Positions 1-55,808 of a stretch of DNA of 64,000 nt are shown one piece after another; positions within the stretch are counted from its first letter, which is position 1; each line of letters opens with the position of its first letter. Origin of the DNA: Viridothelium virens (Eukaryota; Ascomycota; Dothideomycetes; Trypetheliales; Trypetheliaceae). Made by a program: the position numbers and the translations under genes. Under the pieces are notes generated by a model. The model did not search any database and was not told the DNA's origin. It saw nothing but the letters and a program-made list of their open reading frames with translations. The stretch spans positions 186,001 through 250,000 of the forward strand of contig ML991775.1 in NCBI GenBank assembly GCA_010094025.1. Direction: 5' to 3'.

Positions 1-708
1 GACGAGGCCGACGCCATGACGGCGACCGCCCAGATGGCCCTCCGCCGCATCATGGAGAAATACACCGCCAACACGCGCTTCTGCATCATCGCCAACTACA
101 CGCACAAGCTATCGCCCGCCCTCCTCTCCCGCTGCACCCGCTTCCGCTTCTCGCCCCTCAAGCCCGCCGACATCCGCTCGCTGGTCGACCGGGTCATCGC
201 CGAGGAGCACGTCGCGATCGCCGCCGACGCGGCCGACGCGCTCGTCAGCCTCGCCAAAGGCGACATGCGGCGCGCGCTGAACGTGCTGCAGGCGTGCCAC
301 GCCTCGTCGACGCCGCTGCGCCCGCCTGGCGCGCCTCCCTTGACGCCGAAGCAGCAGGCCGACCTCCAGCGCGACACCATCACCGTCGACACCGTGTATG
401 ACTGCGTGGCGGCGCCGCATCCGCAGGATATCGAGCGTATCAGGGATACCCTGCTCAGTACCCCCGATGTGGCGAGCTGTTTGAGTGTCGTTAATGCGCT
501 GAAGAAGGATAAGGGGCTGGCGCTCGCGGATATCTTGAGTGCGTTGGCGGAGGAGCTGGTGAAGTTGGAGGTGCCGAGGCAGACGCGGGTGCTGTGGATG
601 GAGGGGTTGAGCGAGACTGAGTGGAGGTTGGCGGGTGGGGGGAGCGAGATGGTGCAGACGGGAGGGTTGGTTGGAGTGGTAAGGAGTGGGTGTGAATTGG
701 CGGCGTAA
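1..708 (+). CDS. RFC3: Replication factor C subunit 3 (clamp loader), 5' partial
   Basis: Small subunit of the RFC clamp loader, which opens PCNA and places it on primed DNA in the nucleus. The window opens inside the gene in frame 1 at the Walker B box (DEAD, bases 1-12), so the P-loop exon lies upstream. Next come the ALRRIMEKYT helix, the sensor 1 segment FCIIANYTHKL and the SRC motif (LLSRCTRFRF), which supplies the arginine finger in this family. The collar domain follows, and the frame ends in TAA at 706-708. About 235 residues are present of a usual 340-350. The order and wording of motifs fit yeast Rfc3 (human RFC5) better than Rfc2 or Rfc4. No intron is seen. Base composition flips within the gene: C-rich up to about 420, G-rich afterwards (see findings). 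The next gene is convergent, 100 bp away. Confidence 0.93.
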   Translation, partial: DEADAMTATAQMALRRIMEKYTANTRFCIIANYTHKLSPALLSRCTRFRFSPLKPADIRSLVDRVIAEEHVAIAADAADALVSLAKGDMRRALNVLQACHASSTPLRPPGAPPLTPKQQADLQRDTITVDTVYDCVAAPHPQDIERIRDTLLSTPDVASCLSVVNALKKDKGLALADILSALAEELVKLEVPRQTRVLWMEGLSETEWRLAGGGSEMVQTGGLVGVVRSGCELAA

Positions 709-807
709 GAGCTTGCGTAACGTGGCGAGTTTTTCAGCGCTCGGTGAATGGTTTCTCTACACAAGCACGTGTAATGATCTCTTCGTTGTCGTTCTGGTAC
801 CAGGCGT

Positions 808-1857
808 TCAGGGACCTGTACAAAGCTTATGATGAAGTATATACCCAGATTCTAGGTGCTCGCTTCCCAGTCCCCAATCCTTTACATCACTCCTACGCCT
901 AACCTCCCTCCTTGTAGCTCCCCAGCCTTCTCCTCCCCCACGACCGTATACCGCCAGTCTGCCGGTTCTCTCCCATGGGTAAGGCCCAGTTTCTCCTATC
1001 CGCCGCGATTCGCTGCTCCTCGAGAATCTATTCCACTTTGGCGTCAGCATCAACATCAAAGCCACATCTCGAAGCTTTCCTCCGATCCCGACACAATCGA
1101 TCCCATCGTTCTCACTCACCCGTTCCGCAACCTCCTTCCGCCTTTCCCGCCTCTCCCTCTCCAGATCTTCGTCCACCCCACCCCCACCCTTCTCCGCCCC
1201 AAAATCCACCAGCATGGTGTTCTCCCTTCTCCCACTCCCTAACCCCTGTCTCACCTCCTCCGCCGTAATCCACCGCCGCGCAAGACACACCGCAGCCTCG
1301 CCTCGCCGGGTACAGCGACTGCAGGATGGCAGCGCGCGGTCGCAGGGGAGCTGAGCGACCGCGCACTGGAGGCAGGGAACGCGAGCGATCCAGGGGATGT
1401 CGTAGGGAGAGTTTCGGCTCAGAGGTTGGTGGGGAGGCGCGGGAGTTGGAGATTTCTCATGGTGTTGCTTGGTAGTGGCGGCTGGGGATGGAGCGGGATT
1501 TGGTGCATTGAGATAGTCGGAGCTCGGGTCTTGAGGTTTGGTGAGTGGATCTATGTCGATGCGATGTCTAAAGTCAAGGGGGGGATCAGGGGGAGGCGAT
1601 GAGGGGAGCGATGCGAGGTCTTGAGGCGAGCCGTCCTCGTCCCAAATCGATGATGGTGCAAAAGGTGAGAACGGGGAGGGGAAGGCCGCAGAAGGAGTTT
1701 CATAGTATTGAGTCCCATACGGATTTGTGGGATCTCCCCTTTCAACTTGTGGTCGAGCTGGTGTCTGGAACTTCGATTCCGTTGGAAGTTTTGGTAGTCC
1801 AGAATACTGGGTAGTCTCCTTGATGACCTGTTCGGAAACTGGACCATGCTTGGCCAT
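808..1857 (-). CDS. Zn2Cys6-type zinc cluster protein, uncharacterised
   Basis: Predicted 349-residue protein from an ATG at 1857 with no intron. Residues 162-191 carry Cys162, 165, 172, 179, 182 and 191, spaced C-x2-C-x6-C-x6-C-x2-C-x8-C, which fits the fungal binuclear zinc cluster (GAL4 type) that binds DNA in the nucleus. The cluster sits mid-protein, after about 150 residues rich in Pro and Ser, and lacks the usual run of Lys/Arg between the second and third cysteines. No fungal-specific transcription factor middle domain follows. The C-terminal half is Arg- and Gly-rich with no family I recognise. It may be a small regulator or a reduced zinc-cluster gene. The frame crosses a C-rich to G-rich switch near 1290. 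It is convergent with RFC3 and its 5' side faces the RNase III gene. The zinc cluster is clear; the exact gene model and function are not. Confidence 0.6.
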   Translation of the reverse strand: MAKHGPVSEQVIKETTQYSGLPKLPTESKFQTPARPQVERGDPTNPYGTQYYETPSAAFPSPFSPFAPSSIWDEDGSPQDLASLPSSPPPDPPLDFRHRIDIDPLTKPQDPSSDYLNAPNPAPSPAATTKQHHEKSPTPAPPHQPLSRNSPYDIPWIARVPCLQCAVAQLPCDRALPSCSRCTRRGEAAVCLARRWITAEEVRQGLGSGRRENTMLVDFGAEKGGGGVDEDLERERRERRKEVAERVSENDGIDCVGIGGKLRDVALMLMLTPKWNRFSRSSESRRIGETGPYPWERTGRLAVYGRGGGEGWGATRREVRRRSDVKDWGLGSEHLESGYILHHKLCTGP

Positions 1858-2434
1858 GACGAGCGAAGATTCCCGCCAAGAAATGGATCAATTCAATCAG
1901 GGTAGGAAAGAGTCAAAGAGAAGGAAAGTGAGATCGGTAAGCCCGACCCATGAGCTCCACCTTTATCTCGGGTGTTTGCATACAAACTGACAAACTGAGA
2001 CTATTGCAAGTGACGGACTTATAAAAAAAGACTAACAAAAGTGTTATCGAAAAGTGATTGCTGTATATGGCATCCGTGTGTTTCCTACTTGTTGGGCTTA
2101 TTGAAACGTGGAAAGACTTCAATACGGCAAACCAGTTTTGGTGTAAAAAAAAAGAAGATATCTGGAAATTAGCTCTGACCCAATCTCACTGAGTTCATTT
2201 CAGCTGTGTTTAACTCGAATGTGTCGAGATTTGAATCAAGCAAGCAATACCACCGTCAAACACTTCCTGCTCAGCCGGTCTAGGCACGCGGTCGTGCTCT
2301 TGTGTCAGACCGAGGCAAACGGAAGATCCTCGCAGCGCATCCCTATCATTGCAGGAGGTCTGGCAGCTCACGATGCCTGCCTCTGGCGGGCCATAGTCCT
2401 TCTCACTAGGAGAATTATTCGATCTTGCCAGTCC
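1858..2434. other. Intergenic, 577 bp
   Basis: Lies between the 5' end of the zinc-cluster gene and the 3' end of the RNase III gene, both on the minus strand. It should hold the promoter of the former and the 3' UTR of the latter. Short A-runs occur near 2027 and 2147. I see no conserved reading frame or RNA gene. Confidence 0.5.
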
Positions 2435-3521: not shown

Positions 3522-3688
3522 GGTGAAATTCAATTCAATGGTGATTTTGTCGGTTGCGGGAGCTCTGGAAATTTTGGAGGTCGGAGACATGCACGACATC
3601 GTTCAGTCGACGTCGGCGTCGGAACCCTTCCTAGACTTGGGCAAACCCTCAATATCACACCACACTTATCCATCACCGCTGCAGCATC
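3522..3688. promoter_or_regulatory. Shared bidirectional promoter, RNase III / mS33
   Basis: Only 167 bp lie between the proposed start codons of the divergent RNase III and mS33 genes, so both 5' UTRs and core promoters must fit here. No obvious TATA box is seen. If the RNase III start is the upstream ATG at 3599, the gap shrinks to 89 bp, which argues for the internal start. Confidence 0.5.
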
Positions 3689-4130: not shown

Positions 4131-4540
4131 TGCGGCGGGCGCGCTATTGACGAATCGTGCATTGGATCTTGAAAGACTGGTTGTACTATTGCATTCATTC
4201 GGCGTAGAAAGAGATTCTGCACTAGCTTGGGAATTTTCGGATATGGAGAGAGATATGTGTCTACGCGAGACATGGGCGATGCGTACAGACTTGCGTTCAT
4301 ACATTTGTCCAAGTGCGACTGTATCATACATGATATCCCTCGCTCGACATTGGGCGGACCCATTTTGGATCCAAGAAAATTTGGTACTGCAACGAAGCTA
4401 ACTACCTCCTGATTTCCATCCTGCACCCGAAAGAAACAAAACGCCAGCCATCTAGAAGATGCGAGTCATGCCAGGAGATCCCGTTCCGTGCCAAAGATGC
4501 TTTCGAACCCGATGTTGGAAAAATGCAGAAACCTCGACAA
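4131..4540. other. Intergenic between convergent genes
   Basis: A 410-bp gap between the 3' ends of the mS33 and Nhx1 genes; expected to hold both 3' UTRs and terminators. Short open frames on both strands overlap each other and show no family motif. Nothing else is supported. Confidence 0.5.
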
Positions 4541-6796
4541 TCATGCTGAGTTTGGTCCACCGCTATGTCCACCACTCTTGGGGTCGAGTAGTAGCTTCGG
4601 CTTGATGAAGCCTTCGTCTATCTGACTGAACCAATTTGCCGCATCCTCTGACGTTCCCGAGAACAATTGGCTGATGGCACCACTCGTTGTAAGGTTGTGA
4701 TCGCTCGTGCTCCGAGTTCCCTCTGGTCTCGTTCCCGACGTTAAATGTGATATATCGCCTTGGCTTGTCCCGCCGTCTCGGCTATCTCTCGTCGGCGAGA
4801 GCTTTCTTCTCGGCGATCGTCTCGCTGGAGGCGGCAAGTCAAGGTCAGCATCGTCATCATCATCGTCAAAGTCAATTTCTTGACTCAGTAATCCTTGTTC
4901 CGCCACGTCCATGTTTCTGCCACTCCGACTTGTATTCATCCTTCTACCAATGGCCGATCCAGGACGTTGGGGTGGACTGGCACTGATAGTCCCACTGCTA
5001 TAGATACCTGCTGTTCCGCCTTGCCGATCGCGGTCTCTACTACGGTTATCCATAGGTGAAAGTGCAACACCATTGGTACTTGATTTCGGCATGTGACCAA
5101 GACCTTTTCCTGCGTTCCTGGAGTAGGTCCCGCCAGAGACAACTTCAATATCGAATTCATCATCCGAGTCGATTTCTTCTACGACCCCCATTCGAATGTT
5201 CAGGATCTCAAGCATCCGTGCCGTCGTCCCTCCAAAAATGATTACGGTCAATACAACGACAACCAGAACCGTAGCCCTCAGAGCATTTCCGTTGGGTCCA
5301 GTTAAGCCGGCAGCAAGAGCCACTCCTACGGCCCCCCGCAAGCCTGCCCAGAAAAGCATCGCTTGATGAGGCCATGGAAGTTCTTCCACGGCTTCTTGTC
5401 CTCGACGCTGGGCACGATATCTAATGAACCAATTGATCGCCTTTGCCAGAGGGAAGACAGCTAGGTATCTGGCAATGCAGATTCCAATTACCGTAACCAG
5501 GATGAAAAGAGGCTTAAATTCCAGGCCTGTCTCTGAGAACAGGGTGAGACCCAGGTAGATGAAAATGAAATTCTCCGAAAGCTGGGCCATGATTTGAAAG
5601 ATGAATTTCGTTGTCAATTGGGTCCGTCTCGACATGTTGTGGTAGGCGTAGTGCTTCAGGCAAATCCCACAGAACAGTAAGGACACAATACCTGCGATAT
5701 GTAAACAACAGTCAGAAGGTATTAAGCGGATTGACTAACCTGATAAGTGGACAGCATTAGCAAAGAAATAGGTAGCGTATGCAATCAAGATGATCAAGCA
5801 GCTTTCGATTTTGGGAAACCGCCGCACGAGGGTGTACTTGAGTAGTAAAGACGTGCCAATGCCAACTACAAGACCAATGATCAAGCTGCCAAAGAAGACC
5901 AGCAAGAAAATGCCGATACTTTCAAACAAACTGAATATGGTCAGGTGTCCAGCCTGAGCACCTTCTTTGTACTTTTGGGCCGTTTCGAAAAGAACGATGG
6001 CAATGGCATCGTTCAGGATAGACTCCCCAAAGATCACTGTATATAGTTTTGGATCGACTTTGTAGGTATTAAAGATGGCAAGAATTGTCACAGGATCGGT
6101 GGCAGAAAGCGTGGCACCCACAGACATCGCCTCGACAAAGTCGATATTGAGTCCTTCGAGAGGTATTCTCGTCCATAGGAATAGGATAAGACCCAAGACC
6201 AAGGCTGAAATAAAGGTTCCAGCGAAGGCAAATGTGAGAATCGCCCCAATATGACGGAAGAAGTTGCCCTTCCTGTCGTTAGCCAATCCACCCAATGATG
6301 TGAAGCAGAATCCTATTCTCACCTGGTGTAGCTCGTAGCCAGAGGCTAGAATAATCGGGGGCAGAAGTAGATTGAAAAAGAATTGGTAGTCGAAGCTCAC
6401 AGCATCTAAGACGGAAGGCGCTGCTGTTAATCGCAAGACGAGACCAACCACCATGCCGGCAAATATTGACATAACCGTCTCATGTATGGCCTGGACTTTT
6501 CTTGTCTGTAACAAGTAGCTCGTGAACAAGGCTACTATGAGTAGGACGATGAGAATGAGGAGAGCCCATGATGCGAAGATCTCCTTTTGGCCAGCCTCTG
6601 GTTCTATTCAGGTATGAGTATTGTCTGAATCGCGTGAATCGCAAGCTTGGGAGGTGTAGGATACCTTCGGGGTCGTCTGGATCTGCTCCATCTCTTTTTC
6701 CTGTACAAGGCATCAGCATCCAGCACTTCAACCGGAGCAAGCAAGTTGACACGTACTCAAAACTTCGAACACAGTATTTGCTAATGCCGAAGACAT
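4541..6796 (-). CDS. NHX1: Endosomal/vacuolar Na+(K+)/H+ exchanger, Nhx1 type
   Basis: Multi-pass cation/proton antiporter (CPA1) of late endosomes and vacuoles that moves Na+ or K+ inward for protons and sets luminal pH. Model: complement(join(4541..5691, 5740..6268, 6323..6603, 6665..6700, 6757..6796)), about 678 residues. Exons 1 and 2 are tiny (40 and 36 bp); all phases close. Diagnostic segments: FFNLLLPPIIL, which in this family lines the amiloride-binding site; ATDPVTILAIF and the FGESILNDAIAIVLF block holding the acidic ion-binding residues; and WAGLRGAVGVALA near the end of the membrane domain. About 12 membrane helices are expected. The last 200 residues are cytosolic, disordered, Ser-rich, with a run of Asp residues before PPP. 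It shares a 749-bp upstream region with the divergent sucrose-type carrier. Confidence 0.95.
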
Positions 6797-7545: not shown

Positions 7546-9729
7546 ATGGCGCACGAGGAGGTGACCGGAAACCCGTCGGACACTTCGGACTCGAACGGCA
7601 TTACCCCTCCACAGACTAGCGATGATTCTATAGCACAACATTCAAAAGCGGTAGCCTTCCGCCGCGATTCGGGGGATTCGCGCAGCGTGAGAAGTGTCCA
7701 TTCTATGGATGGGGTGAAAGAAAACAACGAGTTCTCACCGCTATTGGAACCGCAGCGCGATGGGGACGCACTACGGTTTGCATCAGTACTGTCTCCATCG
7801 ACAGATGAGAATTGGGAAGACAGAGAGGTAGGTGCTCAAGGCGAAGAGACAAAGAGCAGCTGGTATCTTTTTCTCCTTACCATAACAGTTGGTGGGTGAG
7901 TAGACCGGTGCTGGTATCCATGTTGCGCTTGGACGTAACAACTTTGCGCCAGTCGTTGACTTGATTGAGCAGCTTGCAGATCGCATGGTCTGTCGAGTTA
8001 TCCAATGGCTCTGTACGTTGCTTTTTCATTCTACTACATTGCTTGTCTCCTACTAATATTGCCGAAGCCATTTCTCCTTGGCCTCGGGCTCAGCAAATCT
8101 CTCCTTGCTCTTGTCTGGATTGCTGGACCTTTATCTGGAACACTCGTTCAACCATACGTCGGTATCAAGAGCGACAGATGTAGAATCAGTTGGGGAAGAC
8201 GGAAGCCTTTCATGATTGGTGGTGCCATCGCAACATCTATTTCACTCATGGCCCTTTCATGGACCAGGGATATCGTGGGAGGCTTTTTATCGTTATTTGG
8301 AGCAGACCCTGCATCTAAAGGCGTGAAGGTTACGGCTATCGTTTGGGCGGTTCTTTTCATTTACATCCTAGACTTTTCGATCAACGTTAGTAAGTATACT
8401 GTTATACGACGTCTATTTCTCCTCCTATGCTAACCTCACCAAGTTCAAGCCGCTATTCGAGCATTCATTGTCGATTGTGCACCAACCCATCAGCAAGACG
8501 ATGCTAACGCATGGGCTGTCAAGACCTCAGGCGTTGGCAACATTCTGGGCTATCTATTCGGATACGTGAACCTCCCAAACTACGTTCCGTTTCTTGGGAA
8601 TACCCAATTCAAATGCCTGTGCGCCATTTCGATCACCGTTATGTTGGGAACACTTGCGGTGTCATGCACGGCGATCAAAGAGAGGGATCCAAGACTCGAC
8701 GGTGATCTACCACCATATCAGAACGGAGTCATTGCTTTCTTCAAAAGCATGTCTCGCTCTGTTGCACGTCTACCTACCCAGATCAGCCGAGTGTGCCAGG
8801 TCCAATTTGCTGCCTGGATTGGATGGTTTCCATTCCTCTTCTACATTACAACCTACATTGGCGAGCTCTATGTGGAACCATTCTTCGCTGAGAACCCGAA
8901 CATGACTCCTGAAGAAATCGACAAAACCTGGGAGCACGCAACTCGAATCGGCACATTTGCTCTTCTCATCTGGGGCATCACCACCTTCGTCGCCAGCGTC
9001 ATTCTCCCCTGGCTTATCGTCCCCGCCTTCGAGCCTCCTCCGAAACCAAGCGCCACTCCTCTCACTCCCACCAGCATGACCACCTCCAGCTACTTCAACC
9101 TGCCCTCCCCCTCCGCCAAACCCTCATCCTCCCGCTCCACCTTCTTCCACACCCACTGGGCCCGCCTCACCCACCTCACCAGCTCCCTCCGCATCCCCTC
9201 CCTCACCCTCCGCCGCCTATGGCTCCTCTCGCACCTCCTCTTCTTCGCCTGCATGTGGCTCACCTTCCTCGTGCGCTCCACCGCGGCGGCCACCGTGCTC
9301 GTCGGCCTGGTCGGCATCCCCTGGGCCATCACCAACTGGGCGCCCTTCGCCCTCATCTCCGCCGAAATCTCCAAGCGCGACGCCATCCGACGCGGCGTCC
9401 TGCGCGCCCCACCCACACGCGATGGCGAGCGGCTGGCGCGCGGCGAAGACGACGCCCACGGCGCGGATCAGGCGGGTGTCGTGCTCGGGATTCATAATGT
9501 TGCGTTGGCGGCGCCGCAGGTCATCGCGACGTTGGTCAGTTCGGCGATCTTTAAGGCGTTGCAGAAGCCGAGGGGCAGTGTCGGGGATGAGAGCGTCGCG
9601 TGGGTGTTGAGGTTTGGTGGGGTTTGTGCGTTGCTTGCGGCGTGGTTGACGATGAGGGTGGGGGAGGAGGCGGAGGATTTGAGAGGGGATGCTGGGGAGG
9701 GGAGGGAGGGGGCGGGTCGTGTACATTGA
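7546..9729 (+). CDS. MFS carrier of the sucrose/GPH family (SLC45-like)
   Basis: Proton-coupled sugar carrier, probably plasma membrane, related to plant SUT and animal SLC45 proteins. Model: join(7546..7895, 7973..8012, 8068..8389, 8444..9729), about 665 residues. A disordered N-terminal tail of about 105 residues precedes the first helix. Exon 2 (40 bp) encodes LQIAWSVELSNGS, the conserved end of helix 1, and exon 3 continues with WIAGPLSGTLVQPYVG and the family loop RISWGRRKPFM (R-x-G-R-R/K-R/K). Further helices and a Pro/Ser-rich central loop follow. The substrate is not proved; sucrose, maltose or glucose are possible. The third codon positions change from C-rich (about 8950-9420) to G-rich (9440-9720) inside exon 4. 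Divergent from NHX1. Confidence 0.88.
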
Positions 9730-10305
9730 ATGGGATTCCCTTTGCATTATTAGCTAGATGGTTGACTGGGTCTGGATAGGTATTCGTTCGGCTTCATGGC
9801 GGAAGGTGTGCTTTCCGGCGTTAAGGCTGACGGTGGCTTACGTCCAGCATAGATTACGAGCATTTGGGAGGCAATCTACTCTATCGCTGCTTCTACAGCT
9901 ATCATACCCTCAGCTTATCGAGCTTCACAGTTTTGAAGGAACTAAGTTATATTTTTAGATTTGCGCTTTCTGTTTTCGTGATGTACTTTGTATAATTATG
10001 ATTAAATACAGGAGGAGAGAGCGTCGGCATGTCGCCGAAACAACCTCGGCCCAGCAACCTCAAAAGTTTCGCATGCGCGCTGTATGCATGTATTACCTTA
10101 CTTCAAATATCCAATGCCTCGAGAAGGTCGGAAGCGAGCTTCGCAGTTGCATCGTCCAGAGTGCATAGCCTTTCATAGATGATATCCTCAAGATAGATTA
10201 CTTCCCTTTCGTTGCAAGCGTTTGCTTCCCGTTTTATCCATAGATATCACCTTGCATTTCTGTCTTGTGCTTTGACGAAAGTCCGATTTTGAGCACAGCA
10301 TCACG
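9730..10305. other. Intergenic, 576 bp
   Basis: Between two plus-strand genes: 3' UTR of the sugar carrier and upstream region of the thioesterase. The sequence becomes AT-rich after about 9940 and contains short A/T runs. No frame or RNA gene is supported. Confidence 0.5.
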
Positions 10306-11869: not shown

Positions 11870-13287
11870 ATGGCTGCGCCGGACTTTCGCAAAAGAGTTT
11901 TAAGAGTTATCTTCGTATCCTTACTATTAGATCTAGTACGTCAATTCAAAACCTTTGCTACGAAGCTTTCTGACTATCTAAACAGATATCGTTCACGTTC
12001 ATTCTGCCCCTCTTTCCCAAGCTTCTCGAATTCTACCGCAATCTCGATGCCGAAAGTGGAAATACAAACACCGTGTTGAACCAGGTTCTCCGTGGTCTCA
12101 ATACCTACAAAAACTCCTTCGCCCGCCCGATCAACGATCGCTACGATATCGTCCTGCTTGGTGGGGCACTCGGCTCTCTCTTCTCTCTGTGCCAGGCGAT
12201 TGCAAGTCCTATCATCGGCACTCTGTCGGATACATACGGAAGAAGAACAGCGTTGATGTGGTCAATGGTTGGCAATATCTTATCGGTCGCTTTGTGGGTC
12301 GCTGCAACGGACTTTAGAACATTCCTGGCAAGCCGCGTTGTTGGAGGTTTGAGCGAAGGAAATGTACAATTGGCCCTCGCGATCGCGACGGACATTAGTG
12401 ACGAAAAGCAACGTGGATCCACCATGGCGCTTGTCGGCGTGTGTTTCAGTATAGCCTTTACCTTTGGTCCTGCCCTTGGAGCTTACCTGGCAAACATTAC
12501 AACTGTTGCCGCGAACCCCTTCGCTACCGCCGCAGCTTTCTCGCTCTTTCTTATCGTGACAGAGACCCTGTATCTCTACTTCAGTCTTCCGGAAACCCAC
12601 GTATCCAGCTCCTCCAGCAAGCCTACAGACTCCACACCAACTACGAACGGTCACGCCAAGTCTGCCGCCAACATCAAATCTCCTCGCACTCCAACCACGA
12701 AAGAGCAGCCCCACCGAACCAACTCCCATTTCCTTCTCAACTTCACCCACTTCGCTTTCATTCTCTTCTTCTCCGGCATCGAGTTCTCCCTCCCCTTCCT
12801 CACTTATAACCTCTTCCAATACGACTCCCGCCGCAACGGTAGCCTCCTCGGCTTCATTGGCCTCATCGCCTCTCTCCTACAGGGCTCGCTCGTCCGGCGC
12901 CTTCCACCTCTTCTCAACGTCCGGATCGGCGTTCTCAGCTGTTGCGTCGCTTTCTTCCTACTTTCGCAGATCACTAGCCGAGCGGGTCTCTACGCCGCGG
13001 CGACAGGCTTGGCGGTCACGAGCAGCACGGTGGTCACGGGGCTGACGAGTCTCAGCAGTTTGGAAGCGGGGCAGGAGGAGAGGGGTGGAAAGCTGGGGAA
13101 TCATCGGAGTTGGGGCCAAGTCGGTAGGGCGCTGGGTCCGCTGGTGTTTTGCAGTTTGTATTGGTGGACGGGGCGGGACTTGGCGTATAGGATTGGTGGA
13201 GCGGGGATGATCGGGGTGGCGGGGATTGTATGGGGATTCTTGAGGCAGCCAAAGATTGTTGAAGGTAAGACGGAGAAAGCTGCTTGA
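11870..13287 (+). CDS. Major facilitator carrier, MFSD10/DHA1-like
   Basis: Twelve-helix MFS carrier of the branch that includes human MFSD10 (once called tetracycline-transporter-like). Model: join(11870..11935, 11986..13287), 455 residues. Exon 1 gives MAAPDFRKRVLRVIFVSLLLDL and the intron 11936-11985 joins it to ISFTFILPLFPKLLEFY, completing helix 1. Motif A is present as GTLSDTYGRRTAL between helices 2 and 3, and a long Ser/Thr-rich loop separates the two six-helix halves (about residues 205-245). Substrate unknown: efflux of organic anions or drugs is the usual inference. The coding sequence flips from C-rich (12480-12990) to G-rich (13020-13260). The downstream gene is the convergent subtilase. 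Confidence 0.85.
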
Positions 13288-13814
13288 AGGTAAGCTAGCT
13301 TTGTAAGAGCTGTTTTTATTAGAGGAATCTTTCTCTTTGATTATTGCTATCTTCTTTTGATCCTTAATCTATGAAATATATTCCTTTATGGTGAAAAGCC
13401 TTTATACCATTACAAAATGTGTATCCGGCTTATGATGCGATGTTGCTTAGGGTCCCTTCCGAGGGTTGTTCGACAGGGCAAGCGGGTTGAGAGGGGAGTG
13501 GGAGGGATGAGAAGTAGAGTAGTTTAGCAAGTTTTAAGAGGAAGTAATTACGGGTAATACAGAAGGTCTATTCTTTCTGTCTGTTAAAATATATACAATC
13601 ATTAATGTCTTGATAAGGAATGAATCAAATGTTTTCCTTGCTTAGTTCCCATCCCCTTTCCTATTGCCTAATCCTCCGATTCATACGCACACCATTCATA
13701 TCTCTCGCTGCCTTTGCACCACACTATGACTATTACTACCATAACAGAACGCAACCACTTCCACTACAGTGCTAGACAGAATAAGGAATTTCCAGGACTT
13801 TCGCTCTCAAAGGA
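13288..13814. other. Intergenic between convergent genes, AT-rich
   Basis: A 527-bp gap separating the MFSD10-like carrier and the subtilase, with T/A-rich runs around 13310-13400 and 13540-13640. It marks the start of the AT-rich block that leads into the gene-poor island. No gene is seen. Confidence 0.5.
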
Positions 13815-19439: not shown

Positions 19440-19745
19440 ATGAATTTGGTGCTGGGGGTTGACATGAATTTGGTGTTAGGGAGAGGGGTGATATGAATTT
19501 GAGGAGAGGGGGAATACAAATTTGGGGAGACGGGAGAGCGGGGATATGAATTTGGGGAGAGCGAAGAAGGGGGATATGAATTTGGGGAGAGGGGAGAGGG
19601 GAGAGATGAATTTGGGGAGAGAGCGAAGAGAGAGGATATGAAGATTTGGGGAGAGAGCGAAGAGAGAGGATATGAAGATTTGGGGAGAGGGGAGGGATGA
19701 ATTTGGGGAGAAGGGGAGAAGAGAACAGGGGTGATAAGAAACTGG
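19440..19745 (+). repeat. Polypurine minisatellite, ATGAATTTGGGGAGAG-type units
   Basis: About ten diverged units each begin ATGAATTTGGGGAGA or ATGAAGATTTGGGGAGA and continue with variable runs of GAG and GGGA; unit length is about 25-36 bp. The plus strand is nearly all purine. Two adjacent units (about 19618-19690) are almost identical, which suggests recent slippage. Related words (TGAATTTGG) continue upstream to about 19380. Confidence 0.8.
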
Positions 19746-20036
19746 GGGTAGACAAAAAGAAAAACTCTACCACTCTAACCCCCCATCCTTGCCTCCACTA
19801 CCACTACCACACACTCCTCCCCATCCCAGGGATTTGATGTCAAAAGCCAATTGCCAAGAGTTAGGGAGAACATCGGCTGAAGTTTTGAACAATGTCGGGT
19901 TTGGGGACAAGCAAGGAGAGATTTGCTCCTCGCAGTTGAATCCCAAAACCCACAAAAATCACAACGCAAAGATGGAAAGCACAAACAGGGAAGAAAGTCA
20001 GTCCGTATTTTAACACAGAACTGACTTATAACGTAA

Positions 20037-20278: not shown

Positions 20279-20323
20279 GGAGGTCCAGTCCAGAGGTCCA
20301 GTCCAGAGGTCCAGTCCAGAGGT
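20279..20323 (+). repeat. 13-bp direct repeat, three exact copies
   Basis: AGGTCCAGTCCAG occurs three times in a row and is followed by a partial fourth copy. The period is not a multiple of three, so it is unlikely to be coding. Confidence 0.85.
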
Positions 20324-20799
20324 GGAAGAGTTTCTCAACCACACAGACACAAACACAAACAAAAACTGAAGCCAAAGCACCACTGCCTTCGGCAACGCAG
20401 GCTCCAATTCCAACCCCACAAGAGAACCTGAGGAGCCTCCCCGTATGTCCCCCACAATTTCCCCCGTCCACACTTCGAATCCTCATAACGTCATCCCCCA
20501 AAGAACCTGCGTATATCCCAACTTCCAGCCCAATTTCCAGCGCACAACTTCTGCGCCCCACAAAGTTTTCCCCCAAGAACACCTGACACCACCCTGACAA
20601 CGTCATCCTCCAAGACGTAAGACAGCTCGCCGTCCTTCAGTCCTCAGCTGAGACTTTTTAAAAGCGTCTCATTTCCTCCAAATGCCCCCCAGATCCCACA
20701 ACTTCATAACTTCAAGCTCTCTGACGCCAGCCAAACCTCCACCATCGAAGACAGTTCCCACTGATGGGCAAATGGATCGTAGGCTCTTTTGACTTTCGG

Positions 20800-28764: not shown

Positions 28765-29027
28765 GGTGGTGGCACGAATTGTAGGTAGTCGTGGTAGTGA
28801 ACGTGATATCGGAGGTGTCGTTCGGAGGTGACGGGTGACGTCGGAGGTCAGAGGTCTGACGCCAGGCTGGAGAGTCACTGCACTGCATCTGTCTCTCACT
28901 TCACTCCTCCTCCCCTTGCAGAGGCCCATCTTCTCTTTGAGCCATTCTATACTCCTTTGCTGCGTTTCAAATGCTTCTCCAGTGACTGAAAGTAGTGCCA
29001 TTAGTACGTTTCAGCTGGCAGTCGCCA

Positions 29028-30891: not shown

Positions 30892-31244
30892 GCAAAGCGA
30901 CTAAACAATCTAACATTGCATGGTAGTTTTTGGGAGTACTGTAGCGCTTAAAGGTTCTTTCTCCAAACCTTTAGCGGTGGCCAAGCAGCTCAACGCGAAA
31001 TTTGGAGCCTCTTTGCACGATAGCAACTATTCTGGCCTGGTGCCATGTACGACCTTCTTGAGCACGACTATGGATATAAATAGAAATAGTCGAGCGAGGA
31101 TAGAGCATAAATACGGAGCTTACCTAGAACTACACCAATGATAAGCTCACTCTTTCCAATGATCACTATGACCAACCCGAGCAGACGACTCCTAAAGTAA
31201 TGTCCGTAGAAGGGCCAATTCAAATCTTCCGCATTCGAACCCCT
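30892..31244. other. Intergenic between convergent genes
   Basis: A 353-bp gap for two 3' UTRs (discoidin-like gene and PBN1). It holds a TATAAATAG-like word near 31074 and AT-rich sequence, and no supported gene. Confidence 0.45.
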
Positions 31245-33046
31245 TCACTCCCCTTTCACCCCCTGCGCACGCTCACCCTCCTTCCCCCCTACAGCCAACA
31301 ACTTCCACACCACCCATGCAAACCCCACCACCACCGCTACCACCGTGCCCAGCTCCACATACCTCGCTCGCCCCAAGTCCAACACCGGCACCGGCACCCT
31401 CTCGACCAGCGCCGCCGCCTGTACGGCAGGCGGCACATGATAGAACATCGTCCTCGTCCCGAACAACCCATCATACCCCAGATTCGTGCGATCGAACGGG
31501 TTCATCCCCATCTTCGTCCCTTCCTCCGCTGCACACGCCCAGAACACAACGGGCCACGGCACGTCTACGGCGCTCATCCCCGACGCGTTCGCGCGCGGCT
31601 CAAGGTACCGAAGGTGCAGCGGGATGGAGACGGTCCAGTCTGCTGCTGCTGCTGCTGCTGCTGTCTCAGCGCCGGCTCCGGCTTCAGCTCCGGCTGTAGC
31701 ACCGTCCTGAGGGGTTGAGGGAGGGGCGGAAGGATGCGCGAGCTCGAGCAGGACGGCGGAGCCCCAGCGTGAGATGGCCCAGTTGGGGGCTTCGAGGTCG
31801 GTTTCGCCGGCAACGCTGTGGAGCCGGCGGAGGCGCTGGGAGGAGAGGAAGAGTGGGTCTTGGAGTTGGTATTTGTCGATGAGGAGGGTGGAAGGGAGGG
31901 TGAGGTGGGCGTGAAGGGCACAAGAGGGGTTGGGGGGTATGAGGGATTTGGTGCCGGAGGGGAAGGTGAGCTGGAGGGTTGGGTGAAGACCTGCTGGAGA
32001 TTTGATGTGCGTATAGAAATAAGTGGGAAGGTCTGATGCTGGGACTGGGTGATGACGAGAGGGGAACGAGAATTTGGTGGCTTCTGTGGATGGGTTAGCG
32101 TATCTATCACTGGACGAGATGGAGGTGAATAGGTACTTGGTCTATCATCCTCTCCGACAACTGCCAAGACTCCGCTCAGAGAGAGCTCTTCGGGCTCAAG
32201 TGGCTTTTCGTTAGTCAAGATCCCGACTTCAAGAGTACCGCTTGTTTTCTTAGTCTCAATAAGTTCTTTCCAATGTTTGTTCCCGGTTGGCTCAGCCCAA
32301 TAGGCATTCAGGATACAAGCATGAGATATAATGTCACAGTCTACATCGAGCTGGTTGACATCCAGAAGCGACCGTATCTTAGCTTGCTGTGATTCGTGGA
32401 CAGCGTGCTCGACATATGTCACAAATTTCTTCAAAGAGGGCCATAGGGAATAGTACTGAAATGAGGCGGTGGATGAAAAGCGTTCAGAAAGAATTGGCAC
32501 GTTGATGAAGCTACGCTGTTTTCGGAATTTTTCAGTTTCAGGCGTTGGAGGGGATATATGGAACAGAGGGATACCTCAACGCTCTCGCAAGCTAGTTCAT
32601 TCCCAAAGACTCTTCCCAACAATTGACAAATTTGGGCACTAGTTCGCGGGTTCAGTATTGCAAAAGTGATTACAAGATACTTTTCTTACTCATGTCCTTT
32701 TCGCCGTGGCGTATAGAAGACATGCAATCCTGGGCTTACTCGAGATGTAAAGGGCGAAAGTCCAGCATACAGGAATTGGGATGCCCATCGGATGCGTAAT
32801 TCATGGCATTGGTTTAGTACAAGTCGTAGCTAGCATGAGTCAGTGCAGTTATAATAAGCATAGGTCGGCCTCACAGCTGTTAGCAGTAATTACCTCCTGG
32901 GGCAGTTCGTCCAATCCCAAAGTAACTCGATGCTCTTTGGCGCCATAGAGATCATGAATTGAAAGAGAGTTATCTTGGACTTGGATCTGTTCTGGACCGA
33001 CTTCTGCATCGTTCTCCTCTAGCAAATATGTGATACGTTGCTTCAT
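31245..33046 (-). CDS. PBN1: GPI mannosyltransferase I stabilising subunit Pbn1 (PIG-X)
   Basis: ER membrane protein that, with Gpi14/PIG-M, adds the first mannose to GPI precursors; yeast Pbn1 also acts in ER protein quality control. Model: complement(join(31245..32083, 32137..32515, 32575..32638, 32690..32829, 32894..33046)), 524 residues. The N-terminal half carries SPGLHVFYTPRR and FINVPILSERF; the PIG-X domain begins near YTHIKSPAGLHPTLQLTFPSG and ends with NLGYDGLFGTRTMFYHVPP, followed by one membrane helix (TVVAVVVGFAWVVWKLLAV) and a short Lys-bearing tail. The intron 32084-32136 shifts the reading frame between exons; without it an unrelated proline-rich frame seems to continue. A seven-Ala run sits at the C-rich to G-rich switch near 31650. 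Confidence 0.9.
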
Positions 33047-36874: not shown

Positions 36875-38140
36875 ATGCTCCCATTGAGAGCAGTCCAACG
36901 TGTGCGATCCAGAACTCGCCCCTCCACTTTACTCTCCTCATTCTATTCCTGCCGATTCCGGGGCCTTGTTACTCTCGCATATGAACTTCATGAGCCTCCG
37001 GCTACTTCGGAGCAGAGTACCTCTCGAGGCACCCCAATCATAGTACTACACGGTCTTTTTGGCTCCAAGAGGAACAACAGGAGCATCAGTAAGTAAGGAT
37101 TAGTCCACAGGTCTGTATGAGCTTGTGCTAATGTCTCGCACTTGAACAGAGTCCTTGCTCGCGACCTTAATCGCCCAGTATACAACGTCGTACGCACCTC
37201 TAAAAACTTAATTCACACGCATTAGCTGAACCTTCTCCCAGGACCTAAGAAACCATGGCGACTCTCCACATGATCTCCAACACGACTACACAGCGCTGGC
37301 GGAAGATGTTGAGGGCTTCATGGACCAGCATGCGCTGAAAGACCCCACCCTTATCGGACACTCGATGTAGGAACACCCTTTCTCTCGTCAGAGTCAAGGT
37401 CGCCAAATTGCTGATGAAGAGGCAACGCAGGGGCGCCAAAACCGCCATGACCGTCGCCTTGCGCTCTCCCGAGCGAGTTGCAGCCCTCATTCCTGTCGAC
37501 AATGCGCCCGTGGACGCAGCGCTGAAGAGCGATTTCGGGAAGTACATACAGGGGATGCGGAAGGTGGAGGAAGCACACGTTTCGACACAGAGCGAGGCGG
37601 ATAGTATAATGAAGGAGTACGAGGAGGTGAGTGATGCAATTTGTGTGCGAACCCCCAACCACCCATCCTAGATCCATTCCTGTAACCTTGGCCCTGGTCC
37701 TAGTCTCTTCCATCTCTTTACTAACAACCATCTCTTCCAATCTCCCAGTCCCTTCCTATCCGCCAATTCCTCCTCACAAATCTCATCCGCGACCCTCCCA
37801 CCTCCCCCCACCTCCGCTTCCGCATCCCTATCTCCATCCTCGCCAACGCCCTCGACAACATGGGAGACTTCCCCTTTACCGATCCAGACACGCATCGTCA
37901 TGAAGGGCCAACGCTCATCGTGCGCGGCTCCCATAGCCACTACGTTGCCGATGAGACGCTGCCTGTGATTGGACGGTTTTTCCCAAGGTTTGAGGTCAGG
38001 GATGTGGAGGCGGGCCACTGGCTGATTTCGGAGAAGCCGGAGGAGTTTCGAAGAGGTGAGTTGGGCCACTTGTTTGACCGCGTGAATGATTGCTAAAAGT
38101 AGGGCTAGTTGTTGTGGAGTTCTTGCAGGATAAGGATTAA
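36875..38140 (+). CDS. Mitochondrial alpha/beta hydrolase, ABHD11/Imo32-like
   Basis: Model: join(36875..37092, 37150..37189, 37242..37366, 37431..37626, 37749..38055, 38103..38140), 307 residues. The first 30 residues are Arg/Ser-rich (MLPLRAVQRVRSRTRPSTLL), a likely mitochondrial presequence. The fold shows the oxyanion segment VLHGLFGSKRN, the strand NVDLRNHGDSPHD, and the nucleophile elbow GHSMGAK split by the third intron. The catalytic His is in VEAGHWL, and the acid probably in the DNMGDFP to GSHSHY stretch. The last intron (gtgagt at 38056) restores the expected end VVVEFLQDKD. Yeast Imo32 is a mitochondrial intermediate-peptidase substrate; human ABHD11 protects lipoylated 2-oxoglutarate dehydrogenase. 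Substrate here unknown. Crosses a C-rich to G-rich switch near 37930. Confidence 0.9.
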
Positions 38141-38635
38141 AGGGAAAGAACGGGAAAGCACGGGAAGCAGGTGATGAAGGGAAGGGAAACGGGGGCTTGA
38201 ATTTGTATTGTAGTTTGAAGCTGAGCTTTTCATTCGAGCATTCACATGGGTAGGATAGAGCGATAGTACAGGGCAACCTCATAAGGGCCATGTAAGGTGC
38301 ACGAGACATCAGATATCAGGACTTCCGCCAGAAAGACTAGCCTGATAGAGTACACATGCACTAGAGGATAGTCATTTCTCATTGACGAAGCACCGCTCTG
38401 ACTTATGCCAGGCGGATCCATCTTTACCAGGTCTGCAATTCCCAATGACAATGCTGTCTTGCTGACATCTCGGTTGAGTGCCCATCTTCTGCTAAAGCAG
38501 AGCTAAATCAGAGAGTATTCGATGGAATATGTCGACTTTGAATATTCTTCATTTCAATTCAGTCAGACTAGCTTCCACTATACGCCAGAGAAGAATGCAG
38601 AGCCAACAAATCATTCCCATCTTGCCACTGCAACA
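38141..38635. other. Intergenic between convergent genes
   Basis: A 495-bp gap between the hydrolase and the eS1 gene. It begins G- and A-rich (38120-38200) and then turns AT-rich. No gene is supported. Confidence 0.5.
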
Positions 38636-51453: not shown

Positions 51454-53629
51454 ATGGCATCGGCTAATTCCTCACTCTCCGAGACGGAGCATCTTCAGCG
51501 ACATACTGGACATCTAATTACATTCATGTCAGAACATAAAGACAACTTGTCTACGACAAGCATTGCCATCTCAATCCTAGTGTTACTTGTCGCTACGCGT
51601 TTCGTGAGTGGCTGGTTGGGAAGTAGCTCTAAGGTCCAGGCCGGCTCAGCACAACGTGTACCCCTGATCCCATACTGGATACCAGTATTCGGTCACCTTG
51701 TTGACCTTTTAACATTTCCCGATCGACTGTTAAAAGGGACCAGGTCGGTAATATTTCAAGATGTCTCCATGAATTGAACGAGTCTGTGGTTATAGCTAAC
51801 AAACGTAGAGATGCATCTGGCCGCGGGGTTTTTGGACTCAACTTGGGCGGAGCCACTCACAATATCATATATTCACCTTCTCTATCGCAATCTCTCTTCA
51901 AGCAAAAATGTACCGTCGTGAGCCACAAGCCCGTGGCATGGCATATCCTTCGACGGACCTTTGGTATGCCTGCAAAGTTCAAGGATTCCTATGCGCAATT
52001 GCAGCCCGAGCTTGAGGATTCCTTCGAACATCATCTGCTTGGAGATCCCCATCTACAGGAGATGCTTGATGTCACTCTCGCCAATGCAAGTCGAGACCTG
52101 CCAAATTTAGTCTCCTTTGTCGACAGCATGGTCGACCAGACTCCCTGGGAAAGGGTTAGCAACGTCTCCGTGCCTGGCCAAGACGCTCGCGGAGCCTATG
52201 TTGAAGCCAGTCTGTAGTAAGTCTCCTTCATCAATTCCTCCCCTTCGTCTCTGCTTCTCATTCACGCGTTCTTTCCTCGATTCTATTCCCTTCTCCTCGT
52301 CCCTTCTCCTGCCTTCAGCTCCCCCCATCCCCCCTCCCTCTTCCTTCCTTCCACCCTCCTCCGCTAACAAACCAAATACTTCTCACCCAACAATCTAACA
52401 TCCCTCTCCCCCTCGCACAGCTCCCTCCTCCGCAACTTCATCGCCCACACCGCGAACCCCTCCCTCTTCGGCACCACCTTCCTAGAGATCTATCCCGACT
52501 TGTACACCTGGCTCTGGACCCTCGACGCCGCCTTCCTGCTCCTCGCCACCGGCGCCCCACGCTTCATCCCCATCCCACGCCTCACCTCAGCACAGATCGC
52601 GCGCTCCCGCCTCCTCCACGCCTTCACCACCTTCCAGCGCGCCCTCGACGCCGCGGCGACCGGTTCCCCCCCGCCTAGCCCCGAGTGGTCCGACCTCGCC
52701 GACGTCAGCCCCTTCGTGCGCACCCGCGCCGACATCTATCGCCGCCACGGCTTCCCGCCAAATGCGCGCGCCCCGCCGGAGCTCGCGCTGCTGTGGGCGA
52801 TGAACGCCAATGCGAACCCCTTGGTATTTTGGCTGCTGCTGCGGGTCTATGCGGAGTCGGCTGCGCCTGCTGCGGAGGGTGGTGGTTCGAGGAGCGGCGG
52901 AGGGGAGGAGGGAGGGAAGGAGGGCGGGACGCTTCTGGCGCGGCTGCGTAAGGAGATTGCGCCATTTGCGCGTGCGCGACAGCCGCCGATGGCGTTTGGT
53001 AGCTTCGCGGAGCCGCCGGAGATTACGTTTGATGTCCCTGGCTTGATGGCGCGGTGTCCGCTGTTGCGGGCGTGCTATATTGAGGCGTTGCGGCTGGACT
53101 CGGCGCCCTGGGCGCTGAAGAAGGTGATGCAGGATTGTGAGATCACTGAGAGTCCGGAGGATGCCGGGCTGGGAGTGGGAGGAGGAGCGCAGCAACCAGA
53201 GACGTATCGCTTGCGGAAGGGAGAGTATGCGGATGTAGCGTTTGATCTGCATTTCACGGATCCGAGGTACTGGGAGGAGCCGATGCGGTGGCAACCAGAG
53301 CGGCATTTGAAGGAGGATGGGGGGATGCCGGAGCTGGGTAGTGTGAGGGCGTATGGTGAGTAGCTGATTTTCGCATGGAGATAACATGATTGAAAGTTTT
53401 GCTAATCGAATGGATAGGAGGTGGTAAGGGCATGTGCAAAGGACGTGCCTTCGCAGAAAAGGAGTGCTTTGCTTTCGCGGCGGGCTTCATAATGCTATGG
53501 GAGATGGAACCGGCGGGCAAGAAGGGATGGAAGATTCCAGGGCATGGGAAGGCGACGGCGGTGTCAATACCAAAAAGTGATATCAGGGTGAAACTTCGGA
53601 GACGCGATTTGACTGCGCAGGAAGCGTAA
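51454..53629 (+). CDS. Cytochrome P450, oxysterol 7-alpha-hydroxylase/prostacyclin synthase-like
   Basis: ER-anchored heme monooxygenase. Model: join(51454..51743, 51809..52216, 52421..53355, 53418..53629), 614 residues, longer than the usual 500-530. One N-terminal membrane helix (TTSIAISILVLLVATRFV) is followed by a proline hinge (VPLIPYWIPVFGH). The ExxR pair is in YIEALRLDS; the heme loop GGGKGMCKGR spans the last intron, with Cys551 as thiolate ligand. Just before it stands Tyr where most P450s have Phe. A Gly/Ser/Glu-rich insert (GGGSRSGGGEEGGKEGG) in the middle of the protein adds length. Closest in style to fungal CYP7/8-like proteins with a short I-helix word (ANANPLVFWLL). Substrate unknown; a sterol or oxylipin is a guess. 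The third intron-exon block switches from C-rich to G-rich near 52770. Confidence 0.88.
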
Positions 53630-54251
53630 AATTTAACAAGTTGAATGGAAACGGGACTTCTCTGTATAGAGGGTCCGATGTGTGTGATTGAGCGAAGTAT
53701 CGGATTTGTAGAAACGGCTGTTCACATAGTGTTAAAGAATCTGATACGGGTATCTTCACCCACTGAAAATCATAACAAAGAATCCATCGACTTCTCCCAA
53801 TCCCACCATGCCCATCAGCTCTTCGATCTCTACAACTCATTTGGTGACCACGACTGTATGCGCCGCATCCTTTTCGCCCACCAGCTAAGGTCTCGGGAAG
53901 GATATCTCTTCCGCTTTTGGCTTGATGGTTCATCCGGAACCAAGAAAAATGCTAAATGGTACAAGCAACGTAAAGGCTGGTAGAGAAACCCGTGCGGCAA
54001 TGTTCCTTGGTCGTTAAAGATCCCAGTCGCGAAGATACTTTGCCAGATTTCTGTCGCGCAAGGACATACCACCTGTAGACATTTTAGTAGAGGCAAAAGA
54101 GCTCGGATTTGATATCGATATTTGGAGTGCCTGCTGGAGATTTCATACGTCGTCCCAAGCAGGAGAGGGTGGTGCAGGAGCTGTCAGCCTGTACAGAGGT
54201 TAGCTTTCGTTGCTTCTATACAAATCGTATCGGCAATGAGCCTGAAGTGAC
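53630..54251. other. Intergenic between convergent genes, 622 bp
   Basis: Between P450 and ZUP1 3' ends, a long gap for fungal convergent genes. A small minus-strand frame (54014-54082; begins MSTGGMSLRDRNLAKYL) is basic and protein-like but only 22 codons, with no clear second exon. It is noted, not called. Confidence 0.4.
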
Positions 54252-55808
54252 TTACTCTACAATCTCAAAGTCCCGATACCTACTCAAACTTGCCACGCCA
54301 CGTCGATACATCTTGAGCAGCGGGGCCGTCGCTTGTGGACGACGAACGAGACCATCCTTCAGTCGCCGCATCTCCTTGGACACGACATACATCGGGTCGA
54401 ACACCAGCAGATTCCTTGACCCATCCTTCCGAACCTCCAACCCCACAACCGTCAGCGAATGCCCCGGCCGCTGCAAATAAATTGGCGGCATCAACGTCTT
54501 CCGCACCTTCGCATCTGCCTCCTCCACTGCCGCCCGCCCAAAATACCCCTCCACATACTCGACCAACTGTCCCACCGCCGTCCTGGGCTCCCTCTTTCCC
54601 CTCTCATCATCATGAAATCCCGCTACCTCAAACTCCACTCCCAACCCCGCGAACAACGCCGCCACTTCCGGCGTCCCGACATACTTTCTCGTGCCCCTGA
54701 TCCCCCCCGTCTGCTCCCTCCCGAGCACATACAACCCCCGATCCCACGCCGCCTCGATCCCCTCCTGCAGCTCCAGCACGCCCGGCACCCGCTCTTCCTC
54801 TACCCCCCGGCCGCCACCAACACCACCACCACCACCACCAAGCGCGTCCCACCCAGGAGCCCTCGCGCCGCGCAGATACGAAATCAGCATCTGCACATTG
54901 CGATAGCCGCAGAAGCCGCCTTCGCGCGGCAGCTTGCTGACATGCAGCACGGACGGGTGGCAGAGGGACGCGGTCGCGACGCTGGGATCTGAGGCGAGGA
55001 GGCGGGCGAGGAGGGGCAAGAGTCCTGGGATTTCGTTTTCGGTCGCGCGCGTGGTGTAGAGGTGGCCGGTTGGGCTGATGCGTGTGGTCCGCGTGGTTTT
55101 GCCGCCGGTGGCGAGCTGGGCGTGCAGCCAGGCGGGCATTTGCTCTTCGAAGGCGTAGGGGCCGAGTTCGGCTTTCTGGGAGGAGGAGAGAGGGGTTAGT
55201 TGGAGGGTTTGGAGAGGGGAGCTTACGGGGAGGAGAGGAGCTCATACCCCGAGTCGGAGGTTGTTGGAGTTGGAAGGTTCATGACTTTTGTTGGATGTTT
55301 GCTGCTGTTTTTTGATGGAGCTGTTTCCTTGGATGGAGCGTCTTAGACCTGTCTTTCCATCGCAGTCGGATGGAGTCTCTGATTGGTAAGATAACGATTG
55401 CTGTTGCGAATCTTGCGATAGATGTGGAGAAGAATGTGTCTGAACGAAAGAATATGAGGAAGATGCTGAACTAGCCATGCTTGAGCGAGCGATACTGGCA
55501 TCGTCCTCTGAGCTTAATTTCTCCGCAAAATGCAGGTCGAGATGTTCATTGAGTTCTTCGAGAAGGACCTCCTCGCCGCATTCTGCTTGCGGACATTGCG
55601 CCCACTCATCTTGCGACTCCTTTAGTGAGGCGTAGGGCTCGGAAGGCTTATCAGGCTGATGCCGATCTGGAAGTTGCGATGGCGGTGAAGAGTCTTTTAT
55701 CTGGAAGGGCGAATCGTCGGTATGATACTGCTCAACATGTAATGTAATGGTGTAAGCATCTCTGGTTTCGTATCCACAGAAGGGACACGAAAGTGGCTCG
55801 GATGCCAT
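54252..55808 (-). CDS. Zinc-finger peptidase C78, Zufsp/ZUP1-type deubiquitinase
   Basis: Cysteine protease of the UfSP-like fold; in animals and fission yeast this branch cleaves K63-linked ubiquitin chains and acts in genome maintenance. Model: complement(join(54252..55175, 55248..55808)), 494 residues. The N-terminal C2H2 finger is CPFCGYETRDAYTITLHVEQYH (residues 8-29, C-x2-C-x12-H-x4-H), and a second, weaker one follows (CPQAECGEEV...HLDLH). A Ser-rich linker precedes the C78 domain. Catalytic Cys276 is in EGGFCGYRNVQML, His426 in RPGHSLTVVG and Asp447 in VFDPMY. A Gly/Val/Glu run (GGGGGGVGGG) lies after the Cys helix, an unusual insertion. Only ubiquitin-type substrates are plausible, since many fungi lack UFM1. 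The last exon crosses a composition switch near 54920. Confidence 0.9.

Follow-up and report, generated by a model that had tools for sequence, protein, structure and literature searches.

In most unicellular fungi, genes carry on average a weak skew of the coding strand toward C at the 5' end and toward G at the 3' end (McLean and Tirosh 2011, PMC3315797), and that account, in the part drawn on here, leaves open whether mutation by transcription phase or selection is responsible. Plant genes show composition steps and gradients that end at introns, and introns have been proposed there as barriers to conversion tracts (Ressayre et al. 2015, PMC4684703, from the portion of the paper used here). 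Human meiotic hotspots, according to the part of a recent study to which we refer, carry C>N and A>N mutations that are asymmetric between the strands (Hinch et al. 2023, PMC7615360). Here we describe discrete islands of strand-biased composition within genes of the fungus Viridothelium virens, in a window of 64,000 nucleotides (C5:186001-250000, contig ML991775.1 of assembly GCA_010094025.1) and in the stretch scanned around it, G000:C5:1-260000, which we call the C5 region. On the plus strand each island is C-rich to the left of its midpoint and G-rich to the right, whichever strand carries the gene, and the pattern suggests that DNA repair or copying acts locally and repeatedly rewrites one strand to either side of the midpoint. 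A search by title and abstract opening, in mostly open-access literature, found no published description of such islands.

The assembly comprises 30.7 Mb in 175 contigs, of which we analysed 348.7 kb (about 1%), mostly from one contig: the C5 region and fourteen other loci (88.7 kb). Gene models are based on open reading frames (ORFs) and were made within the analysis, and ORFs were labelled by Pfam matches at E <= 0.01. Protein families, a myosin V-like open frame and short predicted introns accord with a fungus, probably a filamentous ascomycete. Unless another source is named, results refer to the C5 region.

Polarity and composition of the islands

We counted a switch as GC-rich where GC was at least 0.62 over 600 bp and both 300-bp arms were at least 0.10. 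By this definition the region contains 19 C-to-G switches and 0 G-to-C switches; at GC of at least 0.58, with the same arm cut-off, the counts are 23 and 1. Counted by arms of at least 0.2, the region has 17 C-to-G and 2 G-to-C switches. The GC-rich peaks of the region are, nearly without exception, C-then-G islands: a C-to-G switch (arm at least 0.10 within 200 bp) lies at 21 of the 22 GC peaks of at least 0.60, two of them barely, and the sole peak without a switch belongs to the flank of a further island. In the window, 8 C-to-G switches pass an arm cut-off of 0.17, whereas 100 shuffles that randomised the order and strand of 90-bp blocks yielded 0.32 on average and never more than 2. The only strong two-armed G-to-C jump of the window, at 842, is the junction of two adjacent islands, and the other G-to-C jumps of at least 0.12 (28880 and 62068) are weaker, with GC of 0.50-0.51.

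A sequence-only reading of the window had named eight such switches, and we found all of them (at 367, 1319, 9420, 12974, 31609, 37963, 52842 and 54938), with both 300-bp arms at least 0.18; the four 60-base counts of C and G that it quoted are exact on recount, and the sub-kilobase scale that it gave is borne out. Its description of the switches as GC-rich holds for seven of the eight (GC at least 0.59 over 600 bp) but not for the switch at 37963 (GC 0.53). Of the two places that it read as weaker and of reverse order, the jump at 28880 is weak and the one at 19752 is one edge of a minisatellite. This minisatellite (window 19503-19694), with a 30-bp G-rich unit, is the only stretch of the window with |G-C| of at least 0.3 over 250 bp that lacks a C-to-G partner. 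Among all arms of this strength, the only unpaired ones are the minisatellite (window 19471) and one arm at locus L029, which sits about 600 bp from the end of that locus. A perfect 13-bp tandem repeat of 3.4 copies (window 20280-20323) lies beside a C-rich stretch at 20401-20600.

The islands are compact, about 0.6-1.5 kb in size, and each is accompanied by a GC peak. Of the 34 C-to-G switches with arms of at least 0.12, we built a mean profile on 20; the 14 omitted by eye were mostly weaker or less GC-rich, though 184521 (arm 0.21, GC 0.55) and 92461 (GC 0.60) were left out too. In this profile, GC follows a bell-shaped curve that starts at about 0.49-0.50 and reaches 0.68 at the midpoint. 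In the left arm C peaks at 0.50 about 275 bp from the midpoint, with G down to 0.12-0.13, and in the right arm G peaks at 0.49 about 250 bp from the midpoint, with C down to about 0.12, while A and T drop about equally on both sides. The switch between the arms is steep (median logistic scale 50 bp), and skews in 100-bp windows inside islands are often 0.5-0.8.

To describe what changes within coding sequence, we counted fourfold sites in 14 ORFs, 13 of them matched in Pfam together with the carrier ORF, which has no match. The C arms (n = 1141) have A.122, C.648, G.124 and T.106, and the G arms (n = 787) A.118, C.100, G.667 and T.114, against a background (n = 9017) of A.24, C.27, G.22 and T.27. 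At these sites one base displaces the other three about equally, with mirror values between the arms, which indicates that transversions are as strong as transitions and that C and G are not interchangeable. The strand symmetry claimed by the earlier reading is supported: at fourfold sites each arm nearly mirrors the other, and in coding orientation plus-strand and minus-strand genes have similar values. Third codon positions do flip within a single gene, as it also stated. First and second codon positions shift in the same way as synonymous sites. Four stretches of presumed 5' untranslated region (5'UTR, taken from the island edge to the presumed ATG) that lie in arms have C of 0.38-0.47 and G of 0.02-0.16. 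Since noncoding DNA, namely one predicted intron and the presumed 5'UTRs, is biased too, the force acts on DNA.

The encoded proteins are affected as well, with S, P, T and H raised in C arms and G, V, E and W raised in G arms; a Pfam family match is retained in 13 of the 20 island ORFs tested. The jumps persist against codon shuffling, a control on which the earlier reading had staked its claim: the observed jump exceeds all 300 synonymous shuffles in 12 of 14 island ORFs, and all codon-order shuffles in 13 of 14, and the mean C-to-G jump after synonymous shuffling falls below the observed one in 14 of 14. These results indicate that amino-acid composition alone is insufficient to produce the jumps, although it contributes. 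Within islands, which make up 7.4% of the sequence, lie 23 of the 30 G-quadruplex motifs of the region, on the G-rich strand of each arm; this enrichment arises because the arm strands are G-rich, and the C arm is not separately explained by it.

Anchoring of the islands in genes

Island edges and an ORF were assigned for 19 of the 20 profile islands, the exception being 151961. For the position of the 3' edge, in coding orientation, we used 16 genes, leaving out PIG-P (contig end) and both the 223963 ORF and the P450-like ORF (uncertain exon end); four of the 16 have no Pfam match (16918, 119248, 187319 and the carrier). In all 16 the 3' island edge lies close to an exon end (median distance 43 bp, maximum 142 bp), and none of 20000 random placements was as tight. 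This exon end is the stop codon in 13 genes and an internal 5' splice site in the other three, which was called by the automatic finder in the 119248 ORF and placed by eye, after the edge had been seen, in the striatin-like and NAPE-PLD-like genes. Measuring to the stop of the open frame in every one of the 16 genes weakens the result, which nevertheless stands (median 62.5 bp, 14 of 16 within 150 bp, P = 0.00015), and the ten Pfam-matched genes that end in a stop have a median of 43 bp (P = 0.0005). At the stop codon, averaged over 15 genes, skew drops from +0.58 to about 0 within 75 bp.

The 5' edges are more varied. They lie at an intron in the RFC3, Get5, sugar transporter and PBN1 genes, just upstream of the presumed start codon in the PIG-P, Bmt2, PhyH, NAPE-PLD-like and 119248 genes, and within a long exon in others. 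Of the five introns that the automatic finder placed in island zones, four are at edges and the fifth, in the C78 gene, falls within the C arm and shares its richness in C; the splice sites of the RFC3, PBN1, striatin-like and NAPE-PLD-like genes were placed by eye rather than by the finder. Islands, with weaker ones counted, occur in 21 of 89 predicted genes. Among nine sugar-transporter genes elsewhere in the genome, two have weaker islands, one at the 3' end of the gene (locus L030) and one at the 5' end (locus L034). The latter, a weaker C-to-G island at about 1350-2200 of L034, indicates that the preference for the 3' end has exceptions.

Genes without islands follow the same trend in a weaker form. 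In 36 background ORFs skew is -0.12 close to the ATG and reaches +0.14 to +0.15 over the final 200 bp, and among 54 background ORFs 16 show a C-to-G trend and 3 a G-to-C trend at P < 0.05, where 2.7 are expected by chance. Genes as a class carry C-to-G polarity in this region, and the islands are the extreme of a polarity common to its genes. The earlier claim that the switches are independent of transcription is not supported, nor is independence from genes, in view of the 16 of 16 edges at exon ends and the 16 against 3 biased background ORFs.

The islands of the window are listed in Table 1. Of the gene labels given in the earlier reading, Pfam supports the MFS transporter, PBN1/PIG-X, the RFC3-like gene and the ZUP1-like C78 peptidase, but the zinc-cluster, sugar carrier, hydrolase and P450 labels found no match.

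Table 1. Islands of the window and features associated with them, in window positions unless marked C5
Feature	Position (strand)	Switch	Gene and details
Island 1	1..751 (+)	367-467	last exon, RFC3-like gene (Pfam Rep_fac_C); C arm begins at C5:185730, 270 bp outside the window, its start <= 3 bp from the 3' splice site (placed by eye); G arm to 751; stop codon 706-708
Gap between islands 1 and 2	751..858		convergent ORFs; holds the 842 G-to-C jump
Island 2	858..1712 (-)	about 1304-1319	ORF 808-1857, no Pfam match; C arm 858-1304, G arm 1304-1712
Island 3	8975..9836 (+)	9420	ORF 8434-9726; sugar-carrier label not confirmed by Pfam
Island 4	12508..13325 (+)	about 12974-12979	MFS transporter, ORF end 13287; Pfam MFS_1, E 2.6e-41
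Island 5	31214..32140 (-)	31609	PBN1/PIG-X, open frame 31248-32141; Pfam PIG-X, E 2.9e-70
Putative intron at 5' edge of island 5	32084-32136		PBN1 gene; read by eye
Island 6	37651..38225 (-)	about 37943-37963	ORF 37671-38315, no Pfam match; sole island of the eight that is not GC-rich (0.53)
Island 7	52222..53717 (+)	about 52777-52842	ORF 52368-53360, earlier labelled P450 but without a Pfam match; C 0.49 and G 0.06 in 52221-52430
Island 8	54351..55465 (-)	about 54923-54938	ZUP1-like peptidase C78, frame 54255-55241; Pfam Peptidase_C78, E 6.6e-38
Predicted intron in island 8 C arm	55176..55247 (-)		72 bp; C 0.51, G 0.08

Two further open frames are worth recording. At G000:C5:48315-50111 (L006 8315-10000 and beyond), a GHMP (homoserine-kinase-like) C-terminus is joined without a stop to AIR synthase, possibly as a gene fusion, and the island in this frame starts within the kinase part. 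A long myosin V-like open frame (window 57139-60990) has no strong switch and can be used as a non-island control.

Possible causes of the islands

For the islands of the C5 region the following are established: polarity, mirror symmetry, transversions, a shift of noncoding DNA as well, compact size and a 3' edge that coincides with the exon end. The cause that we favour, tentatively and at somewhat under an even chance, is recurrent, local, strand-asymmetric DNA repair or conversion inside exons, and among the ideas of the sequence-only reading it is accordingly the fixed strand-biased mutation or repair centre that we prefer. The transaction would likely be homologous repair of breaks or gaps within an exon, in which C would be put into the top strand left of the midpoint and into the bottom strand right of it, whatever base preceded. 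Introns and gene ends may stop the tracts because homology or strand pairing runs out at them, and repetition over evolutionary time would have built up today's composition, with selection keeping the proteins functional. In favour of this cause are the compact C-then-G units with their GC peak, the pairing of the strongest arms, the fourfold counts, the shift of noncoding DNA and the 3' edges at exon ends, and the genome gave one match each to a Spo11/Top6A-type domain (partial), the REV1 C-terminal domain and HORMA. The bias could come either from misinsertion of C in repair synthesis or from a preference for C on the 3'-ended strand in heteroduplex.

A more specific version, which we consider rather improbable, is gap repair on single exons, with both 3' ends extended inward by a C-inserting polymerase, for which a Rev1-like deoxycytidyl transferase would suffice. 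Inward synthesis from both edges would give the top strand its C on the left and the bottom strand its C on the right, and because insertion of C would be blind to the template, it would explain why C displaces A, G and T alike. Borders in such gap repair would be set by exon-bounded RNA:DNA hybrids or by intronless copies. REV1 is known to insert C opposite any template base; the match to its C-terminal domain represents consistency, not evidence, because a REV1-type gene is expected in fungi at large. If true, inward gap repair would be a standing, gene-targeted C-insertion mutator acting on about one-fifth of the region's genes.

Several observations weigh against recurrent repair or conversion as the cause, or narrow its scope. 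Without a GC filter (arms at least 0.10), the C5 region has 42 C-to-G and 35 G-to-C jumps, and the other 88.7 kb has 6 and 12. In these other loci support for the polarity is thin: still with arms of at least 0.10, GC of at least 0.58 leaves 4 C-to-G switches (one each at L023 and L034, two at L030) against 2 G-to-C (L025 and L029), and GC of at least 0.60 leaves 1 against 1. The clearest exception to the polarity is at L025 (about 5950-6450), with a G-to-C switch at 6199, GC 0.59 and arm 0.19. Furthermore, at an arm cut-off of 0.2, 52 of 113 arms are unpaired, some of these being second windows of one arm. The near balance of the weak jumps and the L025 exception limit the polarity to the strong GC-rich class of the region; it is a property of that class, observed on about 1% of the genome, and the C-then-G order proposed in the earlier reading stands for the strong GC-rich switches but not for the weak jumps. 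No 5-8-bp k-mer at the midpoints rose above the shuffle maximum, giving no sign of a shared midpoint motif. Where the 5' edge is free in a long exon, the lengths of the two arms correlate (r = 0.79, n = 8; 0.90 without the 16918 ORF), and similar arms despite a one-sided barrier are unfavourable, because such a barrier should make the arms unequal; among islands with a boundary on either side r is -0.64 (n = 9), and across the 19 islands together it is 0.13. Every island examined lies within a predicted gene, which recombination alone does not demand, and the weak same-sign polarity of background genes favours a gene-linked cause. Finally, island polarity appears opposite to that of C loss from resected 3' overhangs at a central break, the direction that we infer from the C>N and A>N mutations at human hotspots (PMC7615360, in the part used here). 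Such loss of cytosine was also set aside as a candidate in its own right, as polarity and the GC rise both look wrong for it.

The main rival, which we consider possible but doubtful, is a transcription-linked cause: the islands would be an extreme form of fungal gene skew, in which the coding strand gains C near the transcription start and G near the gene end. Strand exposure might differ between the phases of RNA polymerase, or sense transcription might have its mirror image in antisense transcription that starts at the 3' end. Such a cause accounts for the gene anchoring and for the weak background polarity, that is, for the negative skew near the ATG and the skew of about +0.15 in the last 200 bp of the 36 background ORFs, for the excess of C-to-G trends among the 54, and for the island edge at the stop codon in most genes. 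The G bias that is maximal near the stop, the flat AT skew and the amino-acid effects are also as reported for fungi (PMC3315797, in the part drawn on). However, it leaves unexplained a compact unit in the 3' part of long exons. The C arm adjoins the G arm even where the gene start is upstream, and in several genes C arms begin inside long exons or after an intron (RFC3, sugar transporter), while both arms are near mirror images in composition. The 3' edges at internal 5' splice sites in three genes (two of them placed by eye after the edge was seen) also speak against it, and convergent neighbours are not significantly enriched among island genes (14 of 21 against 30 of 68, P = 0.085).

Selection on the transcript or on codons, through splicing, export, folding or amino-acid use, is in our view improbable. 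Islands do track exon borders, and the amino-acid content of the arms is shifted (S, P and T against G, V and E); but synonymous, first and second positions, an intron and presumed UTRs all shift alike, and genes of unrelated function are hit, as the 13 Pfam-matched ORFs of 20 illustrate. Nor does the complementarity of the arms go beyond what composition gives, as z averages 1.1 for 19 islands and exceeds 3 in only two. The same values led us to reject the arms as a large inverted repeat or hairpin.

Replication origins firing within genes, as the earlier reading suggested, would give the C-then-G polarity expected of bidirectional forks, but we regard them as very improbable and reject them, because the edges are bound to genes and skew all but vanishes outside the islands: it is -0.011 on the left and +0.007 on the right (standard error 0.007 each), with signs that fit origins but are non-significant and no kilobase-scale continuation along a fork, the islands are dense (8 in 64 kb, two only 0.95 kb apart) and track exon ends, and transversions are as strong as transitions. 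Equally remote is ordinary GC-biased gene conversion at recombination hotspots as the sole cause, which suits the bell-shaped GC peak at the midpoint but should favour C and G equally, and is contradicted at fourfold sites by C about fivefold above G in one arm and G more than sixfold above C in the other.

If recurrent repair or conversion is confirmed, the islands would reveal from sequence alone the sites at which a strand-specific repair or conversion machine acts, with a precision of a few hundred bases. They would also be evidence that a force of this kind can alter the amino-acid composition of functional proteins. A further gain would be a direct test of mutation, conversion and transcription as sources of fungal intragenic skew, a question open in PMC3315797 as far as the part used here goes.

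Comparison with known systems

Replication origins show a negative-to-positive GC-skew switch, which the islands share, but the islands are without significant long-range skew, are bound to genes and are 1-2 kb apart in places. With GC-biased gene conversion they have the local rise in GC in common, and they differ in that C and G are unequally favoured. The mutagenesis described at human meiotic breaks resembles them in having a mirror strand bias about a centre, at kilobase scale, with translesion synthesis proposed; in the part of that study considered here, however, the mutation types remove C and A on one strand, whereas C is gained in the islands, and they concern new mutation rather than standing composition (PMC7615360). 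As in the intron-bounded domains of plant genes, composition steps occur at introns here, although in small numbers (four of five automatic introns and the cases placed by eye), and the external regions of plant genes also differ in composition; the plant domains are GC steps and gradients, and no C-then-G switch is described in the portion of that account on which we rely (PMC4684703).

The closest known relative of the islands is the fungal gene-end skew, so far as the part of PMC3315797 drawn on here describes it. In both, the coding strand is C-rich first and G-rich towards the stop, the UTR is included, AT skew is flat and amino-acid usage is affected. The share of significant background genes, 16 of 54 here, resembles the 33% in C. 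albicans, which was obtained by a different test (PMC3315797). Unlike the fungal skew in that description, the islands are discrete, with high skew in 100-bp windows, a GC peak, a sharp shared switch and borders at introns. The intermediate zone in the middle of the gene is not seen, since the island arms adjoin at their shared switch (PMC3315797, same part). Where the fungal skew consists of separate effects at the two gene ends, each island is a single compact unit, usually located in the 3' portion of an exon.

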